Source: a virus
Length of the DNA stretch: 25,600 nucleotides
Virus record (IMG/VR): IMGVR_UViG_3300037071_002673
Coordinates: 1 to 25,600 of that record
Reading direction: 5' to 3' (one strand)
The notes beneath the pieces were generated by a model. It was given only the letters and a program-made list of their open reading frames with translations. It ran no database searches and was not told the origin of the DNA. Positions 1,190 to 23,377 of the stretch are shown here, one piece after another. Every line of letters starts with the position of its first letter. The stretch's first letter is position 1. Both the position numbers and the translations under genes were made by a program.

Positions 1190-2628
1190 GCAGGAAAAAG
1201 CGGCCCAATACCAGCAAAGCGCTGGCCATCCGGCAACGTGCCACCGAAGGTGAGCCGAGGCCTGGGCCGTATCTTGTCACCAATCCGACCGGCGTCCTGC
1301 CCAACGAATGGGGGCAGTACTGGAATTATTGGCAGATGGGGTTTGACCCCATTGCCATTGGCACCAACGTCGTTGTCGAAGCGTGCGTCGATGCCTACGC
1401 GCAAACCATCGCAATGTGCCCCGGCGATCATTGGCTGCGGCAAGCTGACGGTGGACGCACGCGGGTAACGACTTCGGCGCTGTCGCGTATTCTGCGGCGC
1501 CCGAACGAATACCAGAGCCGCTCGGATTTCCTGCTTGGCCTGGGGCGCGACCTTTATATGGAAGGCAACACTTACGCACTGGCGATCAGAAACGCCCGCT
1601 TCGAAGTGGAGTCTCTCCACCCGTTCAATCCGAAGGTATCCATGCCGCTGGTCGGTCCCGGCGGCGAGATTTTTTACCAGTTGAACGGCAACAACGTCGC
1701 CGAGAAGATGATGGCAGGCTCGGCGATGCGGACGACGCACGGCCTCGTCGTGCCCGCGCGCGACGTGCTGCACGTCAAGCTGGAGCCTCGAGTAGGCGAG
1801 CCGCTGATCGGCGTTCCGCCGATCAAGCATGCGTCGGCCTCGATCGCAGCGCAGAACATGATCGGCGCGCAGCTTGTATCGTTCTTCGGCAACATGAGCC
1901 GCCCGTCCGGCGTGCTCTCGACCGACGCCAACCTGACCGTCGAACAGGTTACCGACATGCGGGCGCGCTGGAACGAGCAGGCCAAGGGCCTGAACGCAGG
2001 TGGCACGCCCATCCTGACCAACGGTCTGAAGTTCCAGCCGATGTCGGTGCCCGCCAAGGACGCCGAGATGTCGGCCCTCATGAAGTTGACGCAGGAAGAA
2101 ATCTTCATGGCGTACGGCGTGCCGCCCGCCATTCTCGGCTTTACCGACAAGTCGTCCTTCGCCTCGACCGAAGCGCTGATGCAGTTCTGGCTGGCCCGCA
2201 GCCTTGGCTTTGCGATCGATCACGTCGAAGTCGCTTTCGACCACTTCTTCGGTCTCAAGGGGTGGCCGGAAGAGTATGTCGAGATGGACACCAGCGTTCT
2301 GCTTCGTCAGCAGTTCAAGGACCGGATTGAGGGTCTGGCGCGCGGCGTGCAGACGGCGATCTTCACGCCGAACGAGGCCCGCCGTTTCGAGGATCTGCCC
2401 GACAAGCCCGGTGGCGACGATCCGCGCGTTCAGCAGCAACAGGTTCCGCTCGACTGGGGTGGTTTCGAATTTCAGCCGCCGGCGCCGGCGGCACCCGCCG
2501 CGACACCGGCCAAACCAGACGACGAAGAAGAGCCAAAGCCGAAGCCGGAAGACGATGCGAAGGACATGAAGAACCTCCTGCTTACCTTCGACACAGGGGA
2601 TCGGGAGTATGATCGCCAAACAGCTTGA
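1186..2628 (+). CDS. Phage portal protein, HK97 family
   Basis: 480 residues, close to the usual size for HK97-type portals. The portal forms the dodecameric ring at the capsid vertex through which DNA is packaged and to which the neck attaches. Recognisable family segments are the N-terminal VVEACVDAYAQTIA region, LRRPNEYQSRSDFL, the GNTYALAIRN strand, the LHVKLEP loop, the long helix around SIAAQNMIGAQLVSFFGN, and the C-terminal IFMAYGVPPAILGF and STEALMQFW motifs followed by IFTPNEARRFEDLP. The last 60 residues are Pro/Ala and Glu/Lys rich. The GTG start overlaps the preceding stop by 4 bases, and the end overlaps the collagen-like gene by 20 bases. The usual partners (terminase, protease, major capsid protein) are not beside it in this window. 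Confidence 0.95.
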   Translation: MSRKKRPNTSKALAIRQRATEGEPRPGPYLVTNPTGVLPNEWGQYWNYWQMGFDPIAIGTNVVVEACVDAYAQTIAMCPGDHWLRQADGGRTRVTTSALSRILRRPNEYQSRSDFLLGLGRDLYMEGNTYALAIRNARFEVESLHPFNPKVSMPLVGPGGEIFYQLNGNNVAEKMMAGSAMRTTHGLVVPARDVLHVKLEPRVGEPLIGVPPIKHASASIAAQNMIGAQLVSFFGNMSRPSGVLSTDANLTVEQVTDMRARWNEQAKGLNAGGTPILTNGLKFQPMSVPAKDAEMSALMKLTQEEIFMAYGVPPAILGFTDKSSFASTEALMQFWLARSLGFAIDHVEVAFDHFFGLKGWPEEYVEMDTSVLLRQQFKDRIEGLARGVQTAIFTPNEARRFEDLPDKPGGDDPRVQQQQVPLDWGGFEFQPPAPAAPAATPAKPDDEEEPKPKPEDDAKDMKNLLLTFDTGDREYDRQTA

Positions 2629-4258
2629 GGATTTTGCCTACGGATTGGGCCAACGTTTCGCGGCATACCGCGAGCGCGTAGACGCGGCTTTGCGACTGTT
2701 CACTGCGGAACAGGAGGCAAAGCTTGCCAATGCCATGCTTACGCTGGAACGGGCCATTGCTGGCATAAGGAACGGCGTGGACGGCCAGCCCGGAGAAAAG
2801 GGCGACAAGGGCGACCAAGGCGAACGCGGCCTGCCAGGCGAGGCTGTACGGGGCGAGAAAGGCGATCCAGGCGAGCGCGGCCAGCCCGGTGAATCGATCA
2901 AGGGCGACAAAGGCGATCCCGGAGAATCGATCGTCGGTGAGCGTGGCGAGAAAGGTGACAAGGGCGACCAAGGCGAATCGATCGTCGGTGAGCGTGGCGA
3001 GAAGGGCGACCAAGGCGAACGCGGCTTGCCCGGAGAATCGATCGTCGGCGAACGCGGCGAGAAAGGCGATCCCGGCGATCGCGGCCAGCCCGGTGAATCG
3101 ATCGTCGGTGAGCGCGGCGAGAAAGGCGATCCCGGCGAGCGTGGTTTGCCCGGAGAATCGATCGTCGGTGAACGCGGCGAAAAAGGCGATAAGGGCGATC
3201 CCGGCGAGTCAATTGTTGGCGAGCGCGGCGAAAAAGGTGACCCCGGCGAGTCGATCGCTGGCCCAAAAGGCGAAAAAGGTGATCCCGGCGAGTCGATTGT
3301 CGGTGAACGCGGCGAAAAAGGAGATCCCGGCGAGTCGATCGTTGGCGATCGCGGCGAAAAAGGCGATCCCGGCGAGCGTGGATTGCCCGGAGAATCGATC
3401 GTCGGCGAAAAAGGTGACAAGGGCGACCAAGGCGAACGCGGATTGCCCGGAGAATCGATCGTCGGCGAGAAAGGCGATCAGGGCGAGAGGGGTCTACCCG
3501 GAGAATCGATAGTCGGTGAACGTGGCGAGAAGGGCGACCAGGGCGATCGGGGCGAGCAAGGCTTGCCCGGTGAATCGATCGTCGGCGAGCGCGGCGAAAA
3601 AGGCGACCAAGGTGAGCGTGGCGAGCGAGGCTTGCCCGGAGAATCGATCAAAGGCGAGACCGGCGAGCGCGGCCCGCCGGGTGAATCAATCAAGGGCGAG
3701 AAAGGTGACGCTGGCGAATCTATCAAAGGTGACAAGGGCGATCGCGGAGATCAAGGGCTTCAAGGTGTCTTTCGAGCGCCGGAACCGTGGTCGGATAAGG
3801 TCCACTACACGGGCGATCTGGTCTTCCATGCAGGCTCGACGTTTTGCGCTCAGTGCGATACGGCGCGCCAGCCGCCACACGCGGACTGGGCGCCGGTTGC
3901 GTTGCGCGGCACGGACGGCCTGACCGGCGAACTGTGCGGCGCCTATGACCCGCAGCGGTCCTATTTCAAGATGGATAGGGTCTCCCAGAACGGCAGCGAA
4001 TGGATTGCCAAGTTCGATGCCCCCGGCGAACTTCCAGGAGACGGCTGGATGCTCGGCGCGCGTGCGGGTTCCCGTGGCCATCCGGGTAAAACCGGAGGAC
4101 AAGGCTTGAAGGGTGATAGGGGTGACCCTGGGATCGGCTTCCTGAAAATCTCCCGTCAGGACTGGTCGTACGTGATCGAATTGACCAACGGCGATACCAT
4201 CATGCTGGACATGGAACCGTTCTTCAGACGGTACGATGGGGAGACGCGCGGCGGATGA
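2609..4258 (+). CDS. Collagen-like phage structural protein with C-terminal carbohydrate-binding-like modules
   Basis: 549 residues. Residues 1-55 are a helical, coiled-coil-like head that could nucleate a trimer. Residues 56-386 are Gly-X-Y collagen repeats, highly charged (GEKGDKGD, GERGLPGE) and regularly broken by a GESIVG or GESIKG step in which four rather than two residues separate glycines. Residues about 391-434 and 445-485 each resemble a small CBM5/12-type carbohydrate-binding module, with W, Y..GD and PP..W positions in the first. A short second collagen stretch (about 488-511) and a beta-rich tail follow. The ATG lies 20 bases inside the end of the portal gene, and the stop overlaps the next start as ATGA. 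Collagen-like phage proteins are normally trimeric fibres. Position next to the portal suggests a head or neck fibre, which is inference. Confidence 0.85.
   Translation: MIAKQLEDFAYGLGQRFAAYRERVDAALRLFTAEQEAKLANAMLTLERAIAGIRNGVDGQPGEKGDKGDQGERGLPGEAVRGEKGDPGERGQPGESIKGDKGDPGESIVGERGEKGDKGDQGESIVGERGEKGDQGERGLPGESIVGERGEKGDPGDRGQPGESIVGERGEKGDPGERGLPGESIVGERGEKGDKGDPGESIVGERGEKGDPGESIAGPKGEKGDPGESIVGERGEKGDPGESIVGDRGEKGDPGERGLPGESIVGEKGDKGDQGERGLPGESIVGEKGDQGERGLPGESIVGERGEKGDQGDRGEQGLPGESIVGERGEKGDQGERGERGLPGESIKGETGERGPPGESIKGEKGDAGESIKGDKGDRGDQGLQGVFRAPEPWSDKVHYTGDLVFHAGSTFCAQCDTARQPPHADWAPVALRGTDGLTGELCGAYDPQRSYFKMDRVSQNGSEWIAKFDAPGELPGDGWMLGARAGSRGHPGKTGGQGLKGDRGDPGIGFLKISRQDWSYVIELTNGDTIMLDMEPFFRRYDGETRGG
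2774..3766 (+). repeat. Tandem coding repeats of the collagen-like domain
   Basis: About 1 kb of imperfect direct repeats encoding Gly-X-Y triplets. A recurring unit reads roughly GGCGAGAAAGGCGATCCCGG followed by a GAATCGATCGTCGG-type block that encodes ESIV. I count 18 interruption steps (one GEAV and seventeen GESI), separated by variable numbers of triplets. The unit length varies, so this is a coding repeat and not a CRISPR array or satellite. Such repeats can change copy number by slippage or recombination. Confidence 0.9.
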
Positions 4259-5957: not shown

Positions 5958-6351
5958 GATGGCGAAGGCGCAGTTGGAGATCGCCAAGTCGCTCGCGGAG
6001 AAGATGCGCAAGCGGGCGCCGGTCGGTCTGGCGAAATGGCGCAAGCCGGGACGCAGGCCGGGGCATTACCGGCGATCGATCGTCGGCAAGAGGCTGAAGC
6101 CAGAGGATCTGGGAAAGGGCGGAACGCTTAAGGGCATGAAGTCTGGAACGACAGATCCTTTTGCGACCGGCATCTACGGGGAATTTATCTGGCACTGGAT
6201 TGAATTCGGCGTGCGTAAATCGCCAGCGCGACCGCATATCTTCCCGACCTACCGGGCGGAACGAAAGTACTTCAAGCGTAAATTGCAGGCCGTCCTGAAG
6301 AAAGGTCTGAAGAAGGCCACGGCTCCTGTACCAGTGGCGGCTGCGGCATGA
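5878..6351 (+). CDS. HK97 gp10-like putative tail component (neck / tail terminator-adjacent protein)
   Basis: 157 residues. The family members sit at the neck-tail joint of siphoviruses. Signature parts are the N-terminal helix with IAKSLAEKMRKRAPVGLA, then GHYRRSIVGKR, then the WHWIEFGVRKSPARPHIFPTYR core, in which GT/GV..sPARPF/H is the hallmark. The C-terminus is basic and Ala-rich. It begins 80 bases inside the preceding small gene and ends with an ATGA overlap onto the DUF3168 gene. Order and size match the standard closure, gp10, completion series. Confidence 0.88.
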   Translation: MAFTAKWENRNSVMARLRAVGPNIEVEMAKAQLEIAKSLAEKMRKRAPVGLAKWRKPGRRPGHYRRSIVGKRLKPEDLGKGGTLKGMKSGTTDPFATGIYGEFIWHWIEFGVRKSPARPHIFPTYRAERKYFKRKLQAVLKKGLKKATAPVPVAAAA

Positions 6352-6761
6352 GCATCGATTGCACGCTTGAACTTCAGGGGGCGATCCTCGCCCATCTGAA
6401 AGCGGACCCGGCTGTTTCGGCTCTGGTCAACGGGCGCATCTACGACACGGTCCCGCCCGAAACGCAGTTTCCGTACATCAGCTTCGGGCCAGTCGATGAC
6501 AACGAAGAGGATGCCGACTGCATCTACAGCAGCATGGTCTATCAGCAGATCGACGTGTGGTCGCGTGACGTCGGCTATCCCGAGGTCAAGCGCATCGCAG
6601 GCGCGGTGCGCGCCGCTCTGCACGACAAAGAGGTCGAACTGGCTCTGACGGAGAACGCTCTGGCCGATATCCGCCACCGGCAGACGACGACGGTCCGTGA
6701 CCCGGACGGGCTGACCAATCACTCGATCATGGGGTTTGAGGCGCTGATCGAGCGCCGCTAG
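6348..6761 (+). CDS. DUF3168 tail completion / tail terminator protein
   Basis: 137 residues. DUF3168 proteins are lambda gpU-like, capping the tail tube and joining it to the neck. Visible family marks are the N-terminal ELQGAILAHLKADPAVSALV helix with NGRIYDTVPP, then FPYISFG, a polar loop, YQQIDVWSRD with GYPEVKRIAGAVRAAL, and a terminal MGFEALIE strand. It starts on an ATGA overlap with the gp10-like gene. The gene ends with a TAG immediately followed by the ribosome site for the first major tail protein, marking the step to high-copy tail proteins. Confidence 0.88.
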   Translation: MSIDCTLELQGAILAHLKADPAVSALVNGRIYDTVPPETQFPYISFGPVDDNEEDADCIYSSMVYQQIDVWSRDVGYPEVKRIAGAVRAALHDKEVELALTENALADIRHRQTTTVRDPDGLTNHSIMGFEALIERR

Positions 6762-6779
6762 CCATCGAAGGAGAAAGTC
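6761..6779 (+). promoter_or_regulatory. Strong ribosome binding leader of major tail protein copy 1
   Basis: The sequence GCCATCGAAGGAGAAAGTC directly precedes the ATG and contains AAGGAG at good spacing. Almost the same leader, one base shorter, precedes tail protein copy 2 at 7500-7517. The leader was therefore probably duplicated with the gene. Confidence 0.8.
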
Positions 6780-7490
6780 ATGGCTGTTCCCGTCACTGCG
6801 AAATTTGGCAAGATGAGGTTGTTGCTCGGGGTTTTTCCCGATGTGACGGCCCCTCTTCAGGCTACAACGAACAGCAACCCGACGCGCTGCACGGTGCTGG
6901 TTGGCGACATCACCAAATTCAAGAACGGCAAGACGGTCGTTATCGCGGGTGTCACCGGCACCGGCATGACCGTGGCCAATGGCACCTGGACGATTACCAA
7001 CGTCAACAATCCCGCCAACACGTTTACGCTGGTCGGTTGCAATACGGCTGGCGCGGCTACGCCTGCGGCGGTTGTCGGCAACGCGACAACCAAGAACGAA
7101 GCCGGTGTTGTGACCTACGCGACACCATGCGGCCTGACGTCGAAGAACGCCACGATCTCCAAGAACCTCGCCGAGGTTTCGATCCCAGACTGCACCGACG
7201 AAGATGCGCCGATCTGGCTGGGACGTGATGTGCAGAGCCTGTCCTGCACGATTTCGGGCGACGGCGTTGCCGCGGCGGAATCGGTTCCGGCGTGGGATGT
7301 CGCGGCACTGTCGACGGACTCCGTGCCGATGAAAGTGGAACTGGAATTCGGTGTCGGCAACAAGGTGATCACCGGGCGCTTCCATGTCGACTCCGAGGCT
7401 TTCGCTGCCGACGCAGGAGGGCGCGTGACCCTTGCGATCAACGCGCAGAGCGACGGCGCCTGCACGGCTGTCTGGACCGCCACGCCTTAA
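6780..7490 (+). CDS. Major tail (tube) protein paralogue 1
   Basis: 236 residues. The protein is expected to form the hexameric rings of the tail tube. Its N-terminus (MAVPVTAKFGKMRLLLG) and C-terminal half (CGLTSKNATISKNLAE through AINAQSDG..CTAVW) match a GTA/lambda-like tail tube pattern. Between about residues 31 and 105 lies an extra beta-rich segment (GDITKFKNGKTVVIAGV, then NGTWTITNVNNPANTFTLVG) that resembles the module often labelled ubiquitin-activating E1 FCCH-like in phage proteins. A strong ribosome site precedes it. Two further paralogues follow in tandem. From about residue 122 to the end, copies 1 and 2 are about 95% identical by eye, while their inserts differ far more. Confidence 0.85.
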   Translation: MAVPVTAKFGKMRLLLGVFPDVTAPLQATTNSNPTRCTVLVGDITKFKNGKTVVIAGVTGTGMTVANGTWTITNVNNPANTFTLVGCNTAGAATPAAVVGNATTKNEAGVVTYATPCGLTSKNATISKNLAEVSIPDCTDEDAPIWLGRDVQSLSCTISGDGVAAAESVPAWDVAALSTDSVPMKVELEFGVGNKVITGRFHVDSEAFAADAGGRVTLAINAQSDGACTAVWTATP

Positions 7491-7499
7491 TCCAATCAA

Positions 7500-7517
7500 G
7501 CCATCGAGGAGAAAGTC
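7500..7517 (+). promoter_or_regulatory. Strong ribosome binding leader of major tail protein copy 2
   Basis: GCCATCGAGGAGAAAGTC precedes the ATG, with GAGGAG correctly spaced. It differs from the copy 1 leader by a single missing base. Copy 3 lacks any such sequence. Confidence 0.8.
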
Positions 7518-8219
7518 ATGGCCGTCCCAACAACCGCCAAATTTGGCAAAATGCGTCTTCTGCTCGGGGTATACCCCAATCTTGTCGTCAACCTTGTCAC
7601 CTGCACGAATACCAACCCGACGCGCTTCACCGTGTCGGCGGGTGACATAGCCAAGTTCAAGAACGGCAAACAGGTCACGATCGCGGGCATCATCGCGGCG
7701 GGCATGACCGTCGCCAACGGCACCTGGACAATTACCAACGTCAACAACCCGACTAACAACGTCACGTTGGTCGGCTGCAACACGGCGGCGGCGGGTGCTG
7801 CTTCCGGCGCGGTTGGCACTGCGACAGTCAAGGACGAGGCTGGCGTAGTCACCTACACGACGCCGTGTGGCTTGACCTCCAAGAACTGCACGATCAGCAA
7901 GAACCTCGCCGAGGTGTCCATACCGGACTGCACCGACGAGGACGCGCCGATCTGGCTTGGCCGTGACGTTCAAAGTCTATCCTGCACGATCTCGGGCGAC
8001 GGCGTTGCCGCGGCGGAATCGGTTCCGGCATGGGATGTCGCGGCGCTGTCCACGGACAGTGTGCCGATGAAAGTCGAGATCGAGTTCCCGGTTGGAATGA
8101 AGACAATCACCGGGCGTTTCCATGTCGATTCAGAGGCATTCGCCGCCGACGCGGGAGGGCGTGTGACGCTTGCGATCAACGCCCAGAGTGACGGTACCTG
8201 CACCGCTGTTTGGGCATAA
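7518..8219 (+). CDS. Major tail (tube) protein paralogue 2
   Basis: 233 residues, collinear with copy 1. The start MAVPTTAKFGKMRLLLGVYP and the C-terminal half are nearly identical to copy 1, including IPDCTDEDAPIWLGRDVQSL and ISGDGVAAAESVPAWDVAAL. Many of the DNA differences in that half are synonymous, but a block of about 38 bases around the GDGVAAAESVP codons is identical, which hints at gene conversion or recent shared ancestry. The N-terminal FCCH-like insert is more divergent. The protein ends CTAVWA, three residues shorter than copy 1. The strong leader implies high expression. It likely assembles into tube rings alone or mixed with copy 1. Confidence 0.85.
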   Translation: MAVPTTAKFGKMRLLLGVYPNLVVNLVTCTNTNPTRFTVSAGDIAKFKNGKQVTIAGIIAAGMTVANGTWTITNVNNPTNNVTLVGCNTAAAGAASGAVGTATVKDEAGVVTYTTPCGLTSKNCTISKNLAEVSIPDCTDEDAPIWLGRDVQSLSCTISGDGVAAAESVPAWDVAALSTDSVPMKVEIEFPVGMKTITGRFHVDSEAFAADAGGRVTLAINAQSDGTCTAVWA

Positions 8220-8225
8220 TCCCTT

Positions 8226-8942
8226 ATGGCGACTCCCGTCACTGCCAAGTTCAGCAAGATGCGGATTTGGCTGGGCGCGTATTCCGATCTGGTTGTTCCA
8301 GTGGTCTCGGTGTCGAATACGCTCCCGGCGATCTGCACAGTCAGTGCGGCGAATATCCCCAAGTTCATCGACGGCAATCAGGTGACCATTCTAGGCATCA
8401 CTGAGCCTAACGCTATGGACATAGCCAACGGCACTTGGGTGATCGCTTCAGCTAATGTCCCGCCCAATACCTTCACGCTGACCGGCGTGGATTGTACGGG
8501 CGGTGCATACCCGGCAACGATCGGCATTACCGCGACAGTCAAGAACGTGGCTGGCGGCGTCACCTACATGGCACCGTGCGGCCTCGTCTCAAAAAACTGC
8601 ACGATCAACAAGAATCTGTCGGAGCACGCCATTAAGAATTGCCAGAATCCATCCGCGCCAATGTGGCTCGGACGAGAGGTTGAAAGCCTCTCCTGTTCGA
8701 TTACGGGCGAAGGTGTCGCCGCTGCGGAATCCGTTCCCTACTGGCACACCGCCACGCTCTCGATCGCCAGCGTGCCGATGAAGGTCGAGGTGGAGTTCGC
8801 CATCGGCAGATCAACTATTACGGGGTTGTTCCACGTCACGTCGCAGGCGTTTGGCGCTGAAACCGGAGAGCGGGTTTCGCTCGGAATCAATGCGCAGTCG
8901 GACGGCGACTGCACCGCCGTATGGAGCACCACAGCCTTATGA
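8226..8942 (+). CDS. Major tail (tube) protein paralogue 3, divergent and weakly initiated
   Basis: 238 residues. It aligns end to end with the other two copies (MATPVTAKFSKMRIWLG at the start, GEGVAAAESVPYW in the middle, INAQSDGDCTAVW at the end) but is clearly more divergent throughout. The IPDCTDEDAP segment is replaced by IKNCQNPSAP. Only six bases separate the copy 2 stop from this ATG, and no Shine-Dalgarno sequence is visible, so it is probably translated by reinitiation at a lower level. That would fit a minor tube protein, for example at one end of the tail, which is inference. The stop overlaps the chaperone start as ATGA. Confidence 0.83.
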   Translation: MATPVTAKFSKMRIWLGAYSDLVVPVVSVSNTLPAICTVSAANIPKFIDGNQVTILGITEPNAMDIANGTWVIASANVPPNTFTLTGVDCTGGAYPATIGITATVKNVAGGVTYMAPCGLVSKNCTINKNLSEHAIKNCQNPSAPMWLGREVESLSCSITGEGVAAAESVPYWHTATLSIASVPMKVEVEFAIGRSTITGLFHVTSQAFGAETGERVSLGINAQSDGDCTAVWSTTAL

Positions 8943-9319
8943 GCCGCAGCGCTAAAATCACCGCGCCTTTCGCAGGCGAGGAACATGAATTCCGCATGGC
9001 CTTCGGCGATATCATGCGGCTTCAGGAGAAACTGGATCTTGGACCGTACGAGGTCGCCACACGCCTGCATGCCGGAACGTGGCGGGTTGAGGATGTGCGC
9101 GAAGTTATCCGCATCGGTCTGATCGGCGGCGGCATGGAGGTGCCGCGAGCAGCGCGAATGGTCAAGGATTTTGTCGAGGCCAATCCGATCCTCGAGAGCC
9201 TGGCGCTAGCCCAGGTCATCATGCAGGCAGGCCTTGTCGGCGCCCCGGATGAACCCGTGGGGGAATCGGCAGCGGCGGGAACACCGAACGAATCGACGAT
9301 CTCCCAAACGGCAAATTAA
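8939..9319 (+). CDS. Tail assembly chaperone, GTA gp10 / Phage_TAC_11-like
   Basis: 126 residues from the ATGA overlap start at 8939, preferred over an in-frame upstream ATG at 8921. The family pattern is clear: an N-terminal beta hairpin with FAGEEHEFRMAFGDIMRLQEKL, then GPYEVATRLHAGTWRVEDVREVIRIGLIGGG, then a helical stretch with VKDFVEANPI. Such chaperones bind the tape measure protein before tube assembly and occur between major tail protein and tape measure genes, as here. The last 25 residues are low-complexity (GTPNESTISQTAN). A second chaperone-like domain is open in the -1 frame just past this stop, suggesting a programmed frameshift of the lambda G/G-T type. Confidence 0.85.
   Translation: MSRSAKITAPFAGEEHEFRMAFGDIMRLQEKLDLGPYEVATRLHAGTWRVEDVREVIRIGLIGGGMEVPRAARMVKDFVEANPILESLALAQVIMQAGLVGAPDEPVGESAAAGTPNESTISQTAN
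9253..9319 (+). other. Window for a candidate -1 ribosomal frameshift in the chaperone gene
   Basis: The -1 frame has a TGA at 9250-9252 and is then open to 9552, so any -1 shift out of the chaperone frame must occur between 9253 and the TAA at 9317-9319. A run of five G at 9259-9263 (codons GTG GGG GAA) lies just inside this window and is the best candidate. It is not a perfect X XXY YYZ heptamer. No structure downstream was verified. Confidence 0.4.
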
Positions 9320-9625: not shown

Positions 9626-12600
9626 GTGGCAACCGACTCTGAAAAACTAATTTTAAGCATCTCGGCTGACGTCACCGCCGTCAAGCGTGCGCTCGCCAAG
9701 ATGTCGACCGACACCACGACTACCACCGATGGCATGGTTCGTGATTTCAAGAAGGTCGATCTGGCAGTCAAGTACTTCGCCGCCAACACGAACAAGGTCG
9801 GCGCGGCTATGCGGGACACGACTCGGCAGACGCAGGCCGCGACCGTCAATCTCACTGCCCAGATGAACGACATTGCCCAGCAATTCCAGGCGGGCACGTC
9901 GATGTATACCATCATGGCCCAACAGGGCAGTCAGGTGACGCAGGCGTTGCAGGCCGCCGGCGGCGGCATGCTTGGGTTTGCCAAGACGATCGGCGGCGCT
10001 CTCATGGGCATGCTGTCGCCGATGAACCTTGTGTCGATGGGCCTGATCGCGGTTACCGGCGTTGCCGTCTCATACTTCAAGGAGTGGATGGAAGGCGGCG
10101 AACTATCTGAAAAGGAGATGAAGAAGCAGGTCGATACGCTCTACCAGATAGCTGACGCTTATGGCGACCTGTTGCCCGCCGTCAAGAAATTCGCCGAGGC
10201 ACGAAGAGAGGCGGATGCGGCTGCGGATAGAAAGCAATCGACCGAACTGGCGATCGCCGAGGATTACAAGAAGCTTCAGCCTATTATCGATAAGCTTACT
10301 GCGTCGGTTAACGATTTCAACGCCGAGGTCGCACGCGGCAGCACGTCTCCTCAAGCCAAAGCTGGTATCGAGTCGTACATCCAAAATGTGAATGAACTGG
10401 TCACGGCGTTTCAAACGCACACCTTGACCGTTGAGGATGTGCAGCAAGTCTACGATTCACTGAACGACTCGTACCTGTCGAATACCGATGCTGCCGCCGG
10501 TCTGCGTACACAGTTGAACGAACTGATGCTCGTTGCGCGAGCGCAGGCCGAAGCCGATGCAAAGGCGCGCGAAGAGGCATCAGAGATTAATATTGAACGG
10601 AAGAAGGCGGCGGAGGACTACAAGAAGGCTATGAAGGAGATGCAGGGCATCTCCAAAAGTACTGCGACCGAAGTCGAGCATATTTGGCAAGTCTTCATCG
10701 AGATGATCAACAAGGCGCGGACCGAGGCCGAGAAGCTGCGGGCCGAGATTGAGCGCGACTATGCACTGGGCCGGCTAAACACCGAGTCGTTGGGCAATTT
10801 GGCTAGGGCGCAAGTCAGCAACGACATGGACGAGTACACAAGGCTCGTCATGGGCGCTGAATCAGGTGGAGATGCTAACGCTCAGAATGCCGTTTCGACA
10901 GCGAGTGGCCAGTTCCAGTTTCTGGATAGCACGTTCAAAAAATACATCCCGTATTTGCAATCGCTGCCTGAGTTCGCCGGGCTTACGGCGCAACAAATCA
11001 TGGCGCAGAAAAACAACATCGCGGTCCAGAAGGCTGCGTTCGAGAAATTCACGCAGGACAATGTCGAGTATCTCGACAAGCACAACATAGAGGTCAACAA
11101 CGCTACCAAATATATGGCGCATGTTCTTGGCGCTTCGGGCGCGCGGCAGTTGATGACTGCGGCCCCCGGTACGTCTGTCTCAAGCATCTTCGGCGCCAAG
11201 GCGGCGGGGGATAATCCCAGCCTGCTTGGCGACCGCACGGTCGAGCAATCGATCGCGGCGTTCTACAAGAAGATGCGGACCGAGGAAGCGACGATTACGA
11301 CGAAGGCTTCGCAACAGCGTGTCGATGACGCGCGCCAAGATGCCGAAATCCAAGGCAAGATCACCGACGCCTATGACGAGCAAGCCGCCGCCGAAGCGCA
11401 AAAGCTGAAGTACGCCGAACTGCGCCGCAACCTCGAACGCGACATGGAGGAAAAGGGCAGGGTGCCCACGGCGGAGCAGTACAAAGAGATCGAGGCGATC
11501 GCCAAGAAGCACGGCGAGACGGTTGGCCGCGAGGAAGGTACGAAAGCCGCCGAGAAAGAAGCCGAGGCGAAGAAAAAGGCGGATGAACAATCCGCGAAAA
11601 CGTTCGAAGGCGCGATGCGGCGGTGGAAGGAAGAGACCGATTCGATCAACGCGCAAGAAGAGGCCATCGGCAATCTCGGCAAGAACATAGACGAGACGAC
11701 GCGGAAGCGCGAGACAGCGCAGGCGGAACAGGCGATCCTTGCCGCAGCGGCGCGCGACGGGACAGCCGCCACCAAGGAAGAGGCCGCAGCGGCGAAAGAA
11801 GTCGCGGCGGCTTATGGTCTGGCGCAGGGAAAGAAGGAAGGTTTCAGGCTAGCGACCAAAGGGGCGGAGACCAGCGAATCGACGTTCGAAAGCGCGATAC
11901 GGAAATGGAAGGAAGAGACCGATTCGATCAACGCGCAGGAACAGGCGATCGGTAATCTCGGCGATGCCATAGACGAGGTGACACGCAAGCGAGAGGAAGC
12001 GCAGGCACTGACGGCGATCCTCGCAGCCGCTGCCCGCGACGGGACGGCGGCTACCGAGGAAGAGGCCGCAGCGGCGCGCGAGGTGGCAGCGGCTTATGGT
12101 CTGGCGCAAGGAGCCAAGGAAGGCTTCAAGGACAAGACCAAGGAGATGTCCACCGAACAGAAGGAATTTTTCACCTTCGTTGCGGATACCGCCAAGACGG
12201 CGCTTGGCGGGTTCATCAACGATCTGCGGGAAGGCGTCGATGCGGGCGAGGCGTTCTCGAATATGCTCGATCGAATTGTTGATTCCTTGATCAACATGGC
12301 GATCGAAACGCTGTTCAGCAAAGAGATACTAGGCACGCTGCTTGGTGGTCTTGGCGGTATCGGCGGTGGTATTGCCGCGCCTGGAGCGGCAGCGGGCGGC
12401 ACGGTCGGCATGGCTAGCCACGGCGACGGCAGATCATTCGCCCCATCGACATGGGCCGGTGCGCGGCGCTACGCGAAGGGTGGCATGGCGGGCCTGCGGC
12501 CAGGTGAAGTGCCGATCATCGCGCATAAGGGCGAGGTGATCATTCCGCGAGATATCGTGGATCGCAATCGCGGCAAAGTGGTCAACATGCTCGAGGAACT

Positions 12601-12898
12601 GTACCTGCGCAAGGGGTGGTCCGACGCACCGAAATTTGCGACCGGCGGCGTGGTAATGTCTTCACCGGGAGTGAATATGCCGACGCCTGCCGCAGGCAGC
12701 AACGCGGTTGTCGGCAGCACGATCGACAACAGTGTGCATCAGCAGAACAGCATGACGATCGACATGGCGCAGACCGGAGCGGTGGCGGCGAGCAACGAAG
12801 ACGCCAAGATTTTCGCGCTTAGAATCCAGAAGCTTGTGCAACTCGAAATGGTTCGCGAGAGCCGACCAGGCGGTCTGCTCCGCACTGGGAGGACATGA
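9626..12898 (+). CDS. Tail length tape measure protein with embedded lytic transglycosylase-like domain
   Basis: 1090 residues from a GTG preceded by AAGAGGA at 8 bases. The protein sets tail length inside the tube and is ejected with the DNA. Near residue 76 the LTAQMNDIAQQFQAG motif and the following Gln-rich helix match the prophage tape measure (TMP_2) family. A hydrophobic stretch follows at about 110-150, then long coiled-coil segments. Residues about 405-545 resemble an SLT/lysozyme-type fold: the AESGGDANAQNAVSTASGQF start has a probable catalytic Glu at 412, and KYMAHVLGASGARQL lies further on. Two 94-residue-spaced repeats lie at 659-838. The C-terminus has a Gly-rich hydrophobic part and the GEVPIIAHKGEVIIPRDIV motif typical of tape measures. 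The stop overlaps the M gene. Confidence 0.93.
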   Translation: MATDSEKLILSISADVTAVKRALAKMSTDTTTTTDGMVRDFKKVDLAVKYFAANTNKVGAAMRDTTRQTQAATVNLTAQMNDIAQQFQAGTSMYTIMAQQGSQVTQALQAAGGGMLGFAKTIGGALMGMLSPMNLVSMGLIAVTGVAVSYFKEWMEGGELSEKEMKKQVDTLYQIADAYGDLLPAVKKFAEARREADAAADRKQSTELAIAEDYKKLQPIIDKLTASVNDFNAEVARGSTSPQAKAGIESYIQNVNELVTAFQTHTLTVEDVQQVYDSLNDSYLSNTDAAAGLRTQLNELMLVARAQAEADAKAREEASEINIERKKAAEDYKKAMKEMQGISKSTATEVEHIWQVFIEMINKARTEAEKLRAEIERDYALGRLNTESLGNLARAQVSNDMDEYTRLVMGAESGGDANAQNAVSTASGQFQFLDSTFKKYIPYLQSLPEFAGLTAQQIMAQKNNIAVQKAAFEKFTQDNVEYLDKHNIEVNNATKYMAHVLGASGARQLMTAAPGTSVSSIFGAKAAGDNPSLLGDRTVEQSIAAFYKKMRTEEATITTKASQQRVDDARQDAEIQGKITDAYDEQAAAEAQKLKYAELRRNLERDMEEKGRVPTAEQYKEIEAIAKKHGETVGREEGTKAAEKEAEAKKKADEQSAKTFEGAMRRWKEETDSINAQEEAIGNLGKNIDETTRKRETAQAEQAILAAAARDGTAATKEEAAAAKEVAAAYGLAQGKKEGFRLATKGAETSESTFESAIRKWKEETDSINAQEQAIGNLGDAIDEVTRKREEAQALTAILAAAARDGTAATEEEAAAAREVAAAYGLAQGAKEGFKDKTKEMSTEQKEFFTFVADTAKTALGGFINDLREGVDAGEAFSNMLDRIVDSLINMAIETLFSKEILGTLLGGLGGIGGGIAAPGAAAGGTVGMASHGDGRSFAPSTWAGARRYAKGGMAGLRPGEVPIIAHKGEVIIPRDIVDRNRGKVVNMLEELYLRKGWSDAPKFATGGVVMSSPGVNMPTPAAGSNAVVGSTIDNSVHQQNSMTIDMAQTGAVAASNEDAKIFALRIQKLVQLEMVRESRPGGLLRTGRT
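11600..12136 (+). repeat. Two tandem internal repeats in the tape measure gene
   Basis: Two copies spaced by 282 bases (94 codons) start at 11600 and 11882. Both encode the pattern TFExAxRxWKEETDSINAQE, then AIGNLG, then ILAAAARDGTAAT, then EVAAAYGLAQG. By eye the proteins are about 83% identical over 82 residues. An insertion or loss of one unit would change the ruler length by 94 residues. Confidence 0.9.
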
Positions 12899-19217: not shown

Positions 19218-20066
19218 ATGTCTCAACATGATATGGTCCTCGACAACAACCCCGGCGCGACGTTCCGGGCTGATGCCAATGCCGCGCTGCTGGCGCTGGT
19301 GACGGTCAGTTCTGGCGCGACGGAGCCGCCGACCAAACGCGCCGGGATGTTCTGGCTCGATACGAGCATCACGCCGGATGGCCAATTGCGCATGCGCAAT
19401 CAGGCGAACAGTGCATGGGTGGCACCACCCGGCACCATTGGTTCCAACATGAAGCGGACGATCATTACGACGTCGCAGACATGGACCAAGCCTCCCGGTT
19501 TAAAGTGGCTGGACGTAATCGTCATCGGTGGGGGTGGTGGGACAGGCGCACCGCCGCTGACCGCAGCCGCGCAAGGGTCCGGCTATTCAGGCGGTGGTGG
19601 TGGCGGTGTTAGTACCAAGCTGTATGCGGCTTCCGCGTTGGGTGCGACGGTATCCATTACGGTCGGCCCCGGCGGCGCCGTGACACCCGCCGCAGGCAGT
19701 GCGTCGATCTTCGGCGGGCAGAATGGCGGTGGTGGTGGCGCGGGGATTCTTCTTGCGGCTGGCGTTCAGGGAGCCGCTGGCGGTGGTGCCGGTGGCTCGG
19801 CGAGCGGCGGCGATGTCAATATTCCTGGTTCAGCCGGGGGGATCGCATGGCGTCTCCTGACGGCGGCGTATTCGACTGGTGGCGATGGCGGCTCAAGTGC
19901 CTTAACCAATACGCTGGTAGGGAATATCACGACGACGACGGCACCTGGCACTGTCGGAACGTTTCCGGGTTGCGGGGCGCGCGGCGGGTGCAACGCCGCT
20001 AGCCAAGCCGCCGCCGTAGGCGCGGTCGGCGGTGCCGGGGCGGTTATCCTGATTGAATACTATTGA
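19218..20066 (+). CDS. Tail fibre with shared N-terminal anchor and Gly-rich C-terminal domain
   Basis: 282 residues. The first 67 residues (MSQHDMVLDNNPG to the NSAWV end) match the start of the collar-domain fibre at 20275, so this is probably a common attachment domain to the tail tip. Residues about 85-280 are glycine-rich, with GGGGG runs and beta segments (LYAASALGATVSITVGPGG, then ASIFGGQNGG). The pattern is like the Gly-rich distal adhesins of phages such as those of the T4 gp38 / S16 type, where polyglycine helices pack together. Receptor binding is inference. It begins 9 bases after J behind a GAGGAAGCG site. Confidence 0.82.
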   Translation: MSQHDMVLDNNPGATFRADANAALLALVTVSSGATEPPTKRAGMFWLDTSITPDGQLRMRNQANSAWVAPPGTIGSNMKRTIITTSQTWTKPPGLKWLDVIVIGGGGGTGAPPLTAAAQGSGYSGGGGGGVSTKLYAASALGATVSITVGPGGAVTPAAGSASIFGGQNGGGGGAGILLAAGVQGAAGGGAGGSASGGDVNIPGSAGGIAWRLLTAAYSTGGDGGSSALTNTLVGNITTTTAPGTVGTFPGCGARGGCNAASQAAAVGAVGGAGAVILIEYY

Positions 20067-20274: not shown

Positions 20275-21171
20275 ATGGCCCAACATGACCTAGCGATTGA
20301 TAATGGGCCAGGCGTGGCGGTGCGTGTCGATATGGTGGCCGCGCTTCAAGCGCTGGTCACCATCTCTAGTGGTCCGCTTGAGCCGACGACCATGTTCGCC
20401 GGGATGTTGTGGCTCGACACGTCGGTCACGCCTAACGGCTCGATCAAGATGCGGAATCTGGCCAACACCGCTTGGACGTTTCCGTCGATCTATGGTGACG
20501 ATCGCGTCGGTGAGATCGCCTACTACGCGCGCCCGACGCCGCCAGCCGGATGGTTGAAGGCGAACGGCGCGATCGTTTCGCGAACAACCTACTCTGCTTT
20601 GTTTGCCGCGATCGGCACGCAATTCGGCATCGGAGATGGCGTCAATACGTTCCAGCTACCGGATTTGCGCGGGCGCTTCGTCCGGGCGTGGGACGATTCC
20701 GCCGGCGTCGATCCGTCGCGCGCCTTCGGTTCCACGCAGACCGACGACGTCAAGCATCACTCGCATACGGTGACCGTGACGGTGAACTCTGGTGGCGCGC
20801 ACGCCCACACCGCCACGACGGTAGCGGGAGGATCGCACGCGCACACCGCCTATACTGACGCGCAAGGCAACCACGGCCACAGTATCTTCGGTCCTTATTG
20901 GACAGGCAGCTATCTTGAACACGATGCGTCCGATGAAAGCGATCGTGGCGTTCACTCAACTTCTTATACCCACGGCTCCAGTGCTGCGGGCAACCACGGG
21001 CACAACATTACCGTTAACGCGGGCGGTTCACATTCGCACACCCTGACGACGTCTACCGATCCTGGGCACGCCCATACCGCGTCGGCGTCCGTACCGGCTA
21101 GCGGGGGCGTTACCGGCACCGAGACGCGCCCGACGAATGTCGCGATGCTCGCCTGCATTCGCTACGCCTGA
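20275..21171 (+). CDS. Tail fibre with tail collar domain and His-rich HxH tip
   Basis: 298 residues. Residues 1-67 repeat the anchor of the fibre at 19218. Residues about 80-150 are a phage tail collar domain: GEIAYYARPTPPAGWLKANG, then RTTYSALFAAIGTQFG, then FQLPDLRGRFVRAWDD. The next 110 residues contain seven HxH motifs (such as HHSH, AHAH, NHGH). In the T4 gp37 tip, seven HxH motifs of a trimer hold iron ions, so a metal-stabilised needle is likely here. The C-terminus (TRPTNVAMLACIRY) is the standard end of collar-type fibres. The upstream gap to the small protein is 6 bases. Confidence 0.92.
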   Translation: MAQHDLAIDNGPGVAVRVDMVAALQALVTISSGPLEPTTMFAGMLWLDTSVTPNGSIKMRNLANTAWTFPSIYGDDRVGEIAYYARPTPPAGWLKANGAIVSRTTYSALFAAIGTQFGIGDGVNTFQLPDLRGRFVRAWDDSAGVDPSRAFGSTQTDDVKHHSHTVTVTVNSGGAHAHTATTVAGGSHAHTAYTDAQGNHGHSIFGPYWTGSYLEHDASDESDRGVHSTSYTHGSSAAGNHGHNITVNAGGSHSHTLTTSTDPGHAHTASASVPASGGVTGTETRPTNVAMLACIRYA

Positions 21172-21182
21172 TAGGTGGTCCA

Positions 21183-21431
21183 ATGGAACTCAAGACCGGC
21201 GAACTGCAACCCAAGACAGGCGAAGAACCACTGTTCAAGCTTGGCGACCATGTTGAGAGTAATCCAGAAATAGTTAACAGCGGGGGGATCGGTACGATCA
21301 TTGATATTAGGAGCATCCGGCAAGTCGAAGGCCCCGACGAGATCACGTACCTGGTTATGTATGACGGCGGCAGCGGCGAGAAAGCCTGGTGGCCGGAACT
21401 CACGCTGACACTGACGGGCGACATAATCTAA
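21183..21431 (+). CDS. Small SH3-like phage protein, paralogue of the 23099 gene
   Basis: 82 residues. A GD.V start, a Gly-rich hairpin (SGGIGTIIDIR), an EITYLVMYD strand and a W.PE.TL end give a small five-strand SH3-like barrel pattern. The same pattern recurs in the protein at 23099 (GDRVE, TGGTVLEI, FEISYRIQYD, GWHPEG), so the two are probably paralogues. A TAGGTGG ribosome-like site lies upstream of the ATG. The role is unknown. The gene lies between the collar fibre and the spike. Confidence 0.75.
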   Translation: MELKTGELQPKTGEEPLFKLGDHVESNPEIVNSGGIGTIIDIRSIRQVEGPDEITYLVMYDGGSGEKAWWPELTLTLTGDII

Positions 21432-22785: not shown

Positions 22786-23106
22786 ATGAAGATAAACTTC
22801 GGAGAGACCATTACCCAGTACGACGGCTCGCCTGTCATCGATCAGGACGGCAAGCCGGTGACACTCAGCACCATCACGGTCAACGCGATGTCGCAGGTCA
22901 AGGAGGGCATGAGCGCCAATGACAAACTCAGGAACGCGCGGCTCGCCGAAAAAGCTTACGATGCTGAAGAGTGTGAAATGACCCCGGAAGAGGTGACAAT
23001 CATCCGGGCTGCTATCGGCGAGATGTACCCGCCGCTGGTCGTGCTCAAATCTTTCCGGTTACTCGGCGGCGAACCTTCGCTGCCCAAGGCGGTGGCAAAT
23101 GGTTGA
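22786..23106 (+). CDS. Small hypothetical phage protein after the spike gene
   Basis: 106 residues behind a very strong ribosome site (TAGGAGGA at 22773-22780). The N-terminus is a beta-hairpin type (ITQYDGSPVIDQDGKPVTLS) and the rest is helical (KEGMSANDKLRNARLAEKAY, then MTPEEVTIIRAAIGEMYPPLVVLKSFRLL). The DGKPVTL plus IG..Y.PLVV pattern recurs in small proteins of phage late regions with no known function. It overlaps the next gene by 8 bases. The strength of its ribosome site suggests good expression. Confidence 0.75.
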   Translation: MKINFGETITQYDGSPVIDQDGKPVTLSTITVNAMSQVKEGMSANDKLRNARLAEKAYDAEECEMTPEEVTIIRAAIGEMYPPLVVLKSFRLLGGEPSLPKAVANG

Positions 23107-23377
23107 CTCTAATGACTATCCTGACATCCCTGAAATCGTGACGCAGTGGAACGTCGGCGATCGCGTCGAACTCGCCAACAATCCAACCGGATCGACTGGC
23201 GGGACGGTACTGGAAATTGCCAACATCATGCGCGGCGAGAACACATTCGAAATCAGCTACCGTATTCAATACGATGAAGGTGGCGAGGGCTGGCATCCCG
23301 AAGGCGCGCTAGTTGCCGATGACGACGACACTCCTCCGCCCCCGGAAGGCGGGGAGGACGAACCACCGCCTGAGTAA
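23099..23377 (+). CDS. SH3-like phage protein with acidic tail, paralogue of the 21183 gene
   Basis: 92 residues. The core (about 15-72) is the same SH3-like pattern as the gene at 21183, in order: VGDRVE, TGGTVLEI, ENTFEISYRIQYD, GEGWHPEG. A Pro/Glu/Asp-rich disordered tail follows, which the first copy lacks. The start overlaps the upstream gene by 8 bases. Function is unknown; a structural accessory or protein-binding role is possible. I find no catalytic motif. Confidence 0.75.
   Translation: MVDSNDYPDIPEIVTQWNVGDRVELANNPTGSTGGTVLEIANIMRGENTFEISYRIQYDEGGEGWHPEGALVADDDDTPPPPEGGEDEPPPE

Follow-up and report, generated by a model that had tools for sequence, protein, structure and literature searches.

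The usual picture of a siphophage tail is a homopolymer: one tube protein builds the tube, and other proteins close its ends. Afp5 and Pvc5, tube initiators of contractile injection systems, are reportedly like Alg5. Alg5 itself is a tube-fold initiator that forms the tip-proximal layer of a contractile injection system. In SPP1, gp17.1 and a domain-bearing form, gp17.1*, are mixed in one tube at a ratio of about 3:1, the second form being a frameshift extension of one gene. In the Bacteroides T6SS, the tube-fold paralogues Hcp2 and Hcp3 assemble into a heterohexamer (9vne), so that both stand in one ring. Some actinophages (e.g. Damascus gp17 and gp19; cluster DJ) carry two annotated major tail protein genes per genome, which in Damascus are non-adjacent; the likeness to the present case is one of annotation.

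Two further systems are comparable in structure. T1 gp41 (PDB 9l0f) consists of a tube sandwich with an Ig-like outer domain (residues 16-94) inserted after the first strand, and a single tube protein has been described for this phage. The tail tube of the Rhodobacter capsulatus gene transfer agent (GTA; 6tba/6toa) is built of chains of 130-134 residues without an inserted domain.

We describe herein a viral stretch of 25,600 nucleotides (IMG/VR record IMGVR_UViG_3300037071_002673, positions 1 to 25,600; hereafter the window), in which three tail-tube protein (TTP) genes stand side by side. Since each is complete, with its own start and stop, an SPP1-type frameshift origin does not apply. Hcp2-Hcp3 belongs to a secretion system and the Alg5-type initiators to contractile systems; for the TTP array, mixed rings and a tip-proximal role of the third copy would be analogies. 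Sequences, trees and models support a triplication in this lineage, with all copies kept as constrained tube-fold proteins. No report of three TTPs in a siphophage was found in the open-access literature searched, which is not proof of absence.

A triple tail-tube array in a lambda-like tail module

The array and its neighbours are as follows.

6348..6761, + strand: tail terminator gene (137 aa), upstream neighbour of the array; Pfam PF11367, E 2e-35; PHROG 176 tail terminator, E 9e-21
6780..7490, + strand: TTP copy 1 (236 aa); Pfam PF06199, E 5e-16, residues 107-229
7518..8219, + strand: TTP copy 2 (233 aa); Pfam PF06199, E 6e-17; 82% identity with copy 1
8226..8942, + strand: TTP copy 3 (238 aa), the divergent copy; Pfam PF06199, E 1e-10
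8939..9319, + strand: tail-assembly chaperone gene, GTA gp10-like; Pfam PF11836, E 6e-22
9626..12898, + strand: tape-measure gene (1090 aa); PHROG 8892, E 9e-78; Pfam TMP_2, E 9e-13

The coordinates and lengths that a preliminary description had given for the three adjacent genes are exact, and its assignment of all three as tail-tube paralogues is borne out by Pfam and PHROG matches for every copy and by tube-like models of copies 1 and 3. In the tail-tube family (PF06199, Phage_tail_2; curated cut-off 23.8 bits), copies 1, 2 and 3 score 59.5, 62.3 and 42.3 bits, all above the cut-off, and copy 3, used as a query against its own record, retrieves all three genes (E 2e-159, 3e-83 and 5e-83). 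The ATG of the chaperone gene overlaps the copy 3 stop (ATGA), and the chaperone is of a family shared with the GTA. Lambda M-, L-, K- and J-like tip genes lie in the same module. Thus, terminator, TTPs, chaperone, tape measure and tip genes make up a lambda-like flexible tail module. The tape-measure gene contains an internal tandem duplication (11600-11859 and 11882-12141; 282-nt unit, 80% identical), which would add to tail length.

The same array occurs in two longer contigs from other assemblies, IMGVR 3300037070_000230 and 3300037119_007055, with 100% identity over more than 10 kb and no variants among the three contigs; window and contigs are one virus seen several times. An assembly artefact is ruled out by this recurrence, together with a distance of about 20% or more in DNA between the copies.

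The array has no counterpart among the sampled relatives. In total, 44 distinct TTP C-terminal sequences were collected from related loci, which came from the viral collection, a bacterial genome and two isolated phages; three of the sequences are the window's own and 41 come from other loci. At all 41 a single TTP is present (two of these loci end at a contig edge), nearly always directly between terminator and chaperone, and about 9 of the 41 carry the same domain insert. A survey of 385 bacterial genomes of the class to which one relative's host belongs, which covers the prophages of that class only, gave 53 Pfam TTP matches in 48 genomes and no tandem TTPs. An orthologue of copy 3 was not found elsewhere in the viral collection. 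In three relatives, the terminator and TTP genes are separated by gaps that might have concealed further TTPs; this was rejected, as the gaps, judged by eye, hold HNH-endonuclease-like genes on the minus strand (L015 4483-4911, L017 3412-4158 and L023 4261-4956).

Tube fold, inserted domain and inter-ring loop

The AF2 models of copies 1 and 3 (mean pLDDT 80.5 and 83.3) match GTA, monocin and lambda tube proteins at Z 9-11. The best match of the tube core is the GTA tail tube (Z 11 for copy 1 and 10.9 for copy 3). The models thus indicate that copies 1 and 3 adopt the tail-tube fold, and copy 2 is 82% identical to copy 1; a copy 3 without this fold would have spoken against the preliminary description, and the prediction went the other way. 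A sequence search of solved structures returned only chance-level matches, to G-protein beta.

For copies 1 and 3, Foldseek ranks T1 gp41 first or second, with a match that spans almost the full chain. Its insert occupies the same site as the TTP insert (about residues 20-110), and a lambda-like tip is found in both phages. On the other hand, sequence identity is 11-15%, and the full chains superpose loosely (rmsd about 14 A), probably due to a different angle between the domains.

The inserted domains lie at the following positions.

6837..7109, + strand: FCCH-like/Ig-like outer domain of copy 1 (about residues 20-110); absent in 149-aa relatives; model match to UBA6
7575..7847, + strand: the same domain in copy 2; by alignment and an insert HMM match at residues 21-111
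8283..8558, + strand: the same domain in copy 3; model residues 20-107 match UBA6

When the copies are aligned with the 149-aa relatives, residues ~20-110 of each stand out as an insertion that separates the first strand from the remainder of the sandwich, a feature that the preliminary description did not mention; the Pfam tube match covers residues ~104-229 only. The inserts of copies 1 and 3 match UBA6/UBA1 at Z 10-11 and about 2.2 A; against human UBA6, the values are Z 11.3 for residues 20-106 of copy 1 and Z 10.3 for residues 20-107 of copy 3, each with an rmsd of 2.2 A over 79 residues. The matched region of UBA6/UBA1 is the FCCH domain. No copy has a sequence match to E1_FCCH (PF16190) at E up to 1, so the insert is called FCCH-like in fold and not a member of that family. 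Residues 24-110 of copy 3 match PHROG 584 (E 2e-4).

Insert-bearing TTPs do not form one clade on the core tree (AU p 1e-8), which implies at least three events of gain, loss or exchange of the insert. Its sequence relatives are also found in ~610-aa phage proteins of PHROG 5107. In these 'amidase' proteins (at L052 3533-5362 and comparable loci) the FCCH-like domain occurs one or more times, and their label looks doubtful since the scanned members lack a Pfam match.

Across 20 aligned relatives, 58 positions of the tube core reach a conservation of 90% or more. Copy 1 departs from 3 of them, copy 2 from 2 and copy 3 from 9, which leaves copy 3 with 49. Cysteines 117 and 138 are invariant in the 23 aligned TTPs, copy 3 included, and the pair is compatible, as judged from sequence, with an inter-ring disulfide of the T1 type. 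That copy 3 is an assembly factor or a replacement tip or terminator protein, and not a tube subunit, might be suggested by its divergence and its place next to the chaperone gene, but it keeps the tube fold, and a terminator (PF11367) and the lambda-like tip genes are already present, so this explanation is hardly credible.

Three of the nine positions broken in copy 3 (P136K, D137N and D142S) fall within one loop, which holds 8 of the 58.

8622..8672, + strand: beta2-beta3 (inter-ring) loop of copy 3, EHAIKNCQNPSAPMWLG; net charge 0

In nearly all TTPs this loop is close to E[VI]xIPDC[DE][DN]PDAPxW, and its charge is -4 to -6 in copies 1 and 2 and all 20 aligned relatives (22 others); in copy 3 it reads EHAIKNCQNPSAPMW, with net charge 0. 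Copy 3 has thus lost the conserved acidic charge of the loop. In T1, a beta-hairpin (residues 114-134) joins adjacent rings, there by a disulfide, and in SPP1 removal of loop beta2-beta3 blocks self-polymerisation. Going by the order of elements, the TTP loop would correspond to the T1 hairpin; model confidence is low in this block (pLDDT 54-59).

Divergence, selection and history of the copies

Copy 3 was described earlier as the divergent member and is so, with 57-59% protein identity to either of the others, against 82% between copies 1 and 2. The preliminary description also took copies 1 and 2 to be nearly identical in the C-terminal half; this holds for the protein (94%), but not for the DNA (83%). 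For the pair, dN is 0.13 and dS 0.97 overall, and 0.06 and 0.85 in the core, and dS is as high in the C-terminal half (0.85) as in the N-terminal insert (0.94). The C-terminal likeness therefore reflects purifying selection, which is strong on copies 1 and 2, and not a recent duplication or gene conversion. Recent conversion between these halves was rejected on the uniform dS and a run-length P of 0.10.

In a related explanation, the tandem copies are a recombination store: shuffling of outer domains between them would vary the tail surface. The repeated gain or loss of the insert among relatives would fit, as would the junction of insert and core, where copies 2 and 3 share a run of 10 identical codons (P 0.014, uncorrected for the three tests made). 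However, copies 1 and 2 have no significant conversion tract and a uniform dS, and the three contigs hold no variants, making such a store very unlikely.

On the core tree, the three TTPs group in one clade (support 99/98), whose neighbours are TTPs that lack the insert; within the clade, copies 1 and 2 are sisters. The insert tree also unites the three copies, with weaker support (88/89). Triplication inside this phage lineage follows from this clade, and acquisition of copy 3 from another phage is not favoured. Terminal branches measure 0.036, 0.038 and 0.52 changes per site for copies 1, 2 and 3. In relative-rate tests with four outgroups, 23-29 core changes are unique to copy 3 versus 3-7 in copy 1 or 2 (chi-square 11.6-21.1). 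Thus, copy 3 evolves several-fold faster than its paralogues. In all copy pairs dN is well below dS; for copies 1 and 3, the NG86 estimates are 0.36 and 1.53 (dN/dS about 0.24), with dS near saturation for copy 3. The long branch together with a dN below dS marks copy 3 as a fast-evolving but constrained protein.

These values bear on whether the array is a redundant amplification in which one or two copies work and copy 3 is a relic heading for loss. Relatives get by with one copy, the array is present in one virus only, and copy 3 has a weak ribosome-binding site (see below). Nevertheless, intact frames and a dN/dS of about 0.24 at a dS of 1.5 are not expected of a relic, and the fold and most conserved residues are kept; this outcome appears improbable.

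Translation signals and a possible arrangement of the tube

The start regions of the copies differ, as ranked by anti-Shine-Dalgarno pairing among 32 start sites scored in the window, a few of which are uncertain.

6762..6779, + strand: strong Shine-Dalgarno region of copy 1 (AAGGAGA); -9.3 kcal/mol, 5th of 32
7496..7517, + strand: strong Shine-Dalgarno region of copy 2 (GAGGAGA); -8.7 kcal/mol, 6th of 32; repeat family D8
8204..8225, + strand: start region of copy 3 without a good Shine-Dalgarno; -2.4 kcal/mol, 26th of 32

In copies 1 and 2, the ribosome-binding site (GCCATCGA(A)GGAGAAAGTC) was duplicated along with the gene; copy 3 lacks this site. Copy 3 starts 6 nt past the copy 2 stop, a spacing which suggests that it may be translationally coupled to copy 2. 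Shine-Dalgarno strength is a poor predictor of protein level.

In the reading that we tentatively prefer, an ancestral single TTP gene with an outer FCCH-like domain was tandemly triplicated inside this lineage. The bulk tube most likely consists of copies 1 and 2, whose ribosome-binding sites are strong and whose tube cores have hardly changed; they would form the hexameric rings of a lambda-like flexible tail. Since most of their differences lie in the inserted domain, which faces outward, such a tube would have two surface types. Copy 3, presumably less abundant and altered in its inter-ring loop, would most likely provide a minority ring or a few rings at one end of the tube, next to the terminator or the distal tip, or else a sparse admixture. 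Taken as a whole, this reading falls a little short of an even chance. Among its parts, a mixed or zoned tube, as the preliminary description proposed, is plausible, with more in its favour for copy 3 than that description had to hand, and copy 3 may form a special ring. Faster evolution, loss of the acidic loop and a weak ribosome-binding site lend indirect support to a different placement of copy 3. As a point against this, copy 3 could simply co-polymerise, since 49 of the 58 conserved positions of its core are intact, as are both invariant cysteines.

A further explanation is that the three copies are interchangeable subunits, randomly mixed, with the divergence of copy 3 serving mainly to diversify the tail surface. 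All copies keep the family core and those modelled keep the fold, the insert is the most divergent part among the copies (45-66% identity), and mixed tubes are viable in SPP1. Against this, the core of copy 3, and not the insert alone, evolved fast, and the conserved acidic inter-ring loop was lost; we regard random mixing as rather unlikely.

A zoned flexible tube, made of three domain-decorated paralogues of which two form the bulk and one an end ring with a rewritten loop, is possible but more doubtful than the broader reading preferred above. If it were true, copy 3 would be a non-contractile counterpart of the tube initiators in contractile injection systems. By a rule of thumb of ~1.5 A per residue, a 1090-aa tape measure would give a tail of about 40 rings. 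A triplication with one fast-evolving, altered-loop copy would offer a ready-made test of how the end of a tube differs from its middle, and the array may also serve to test ring mixing and how a duplicated structural gene gains a new position in the virion.

Several other features of the genome were observed. A 549-aa protein (2609-4258), placed unusually between the portal and connector genes, contains many collagen triple-helix repeats (PF01391) and is built of many related ~60-nt repeats. On a longer contig, upstream of the window, an apparent protease-capsid fusion of 649 aa (L097 10574-12523; by eye) precedes the portal gene. Two small proteins (21183-21431 and 23099-23377) look alike by eye and are possible paralogues. 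Finally, two fibre-like proteins (19218-20066 and 20275-21171) have similar N-termini (MSQHDMVLDNNPG and MAQHDLAIDNGPG) and different C-terminal parts, Gly-rich in one and a Collar domain in the other, which suggests another duplicated tail module.
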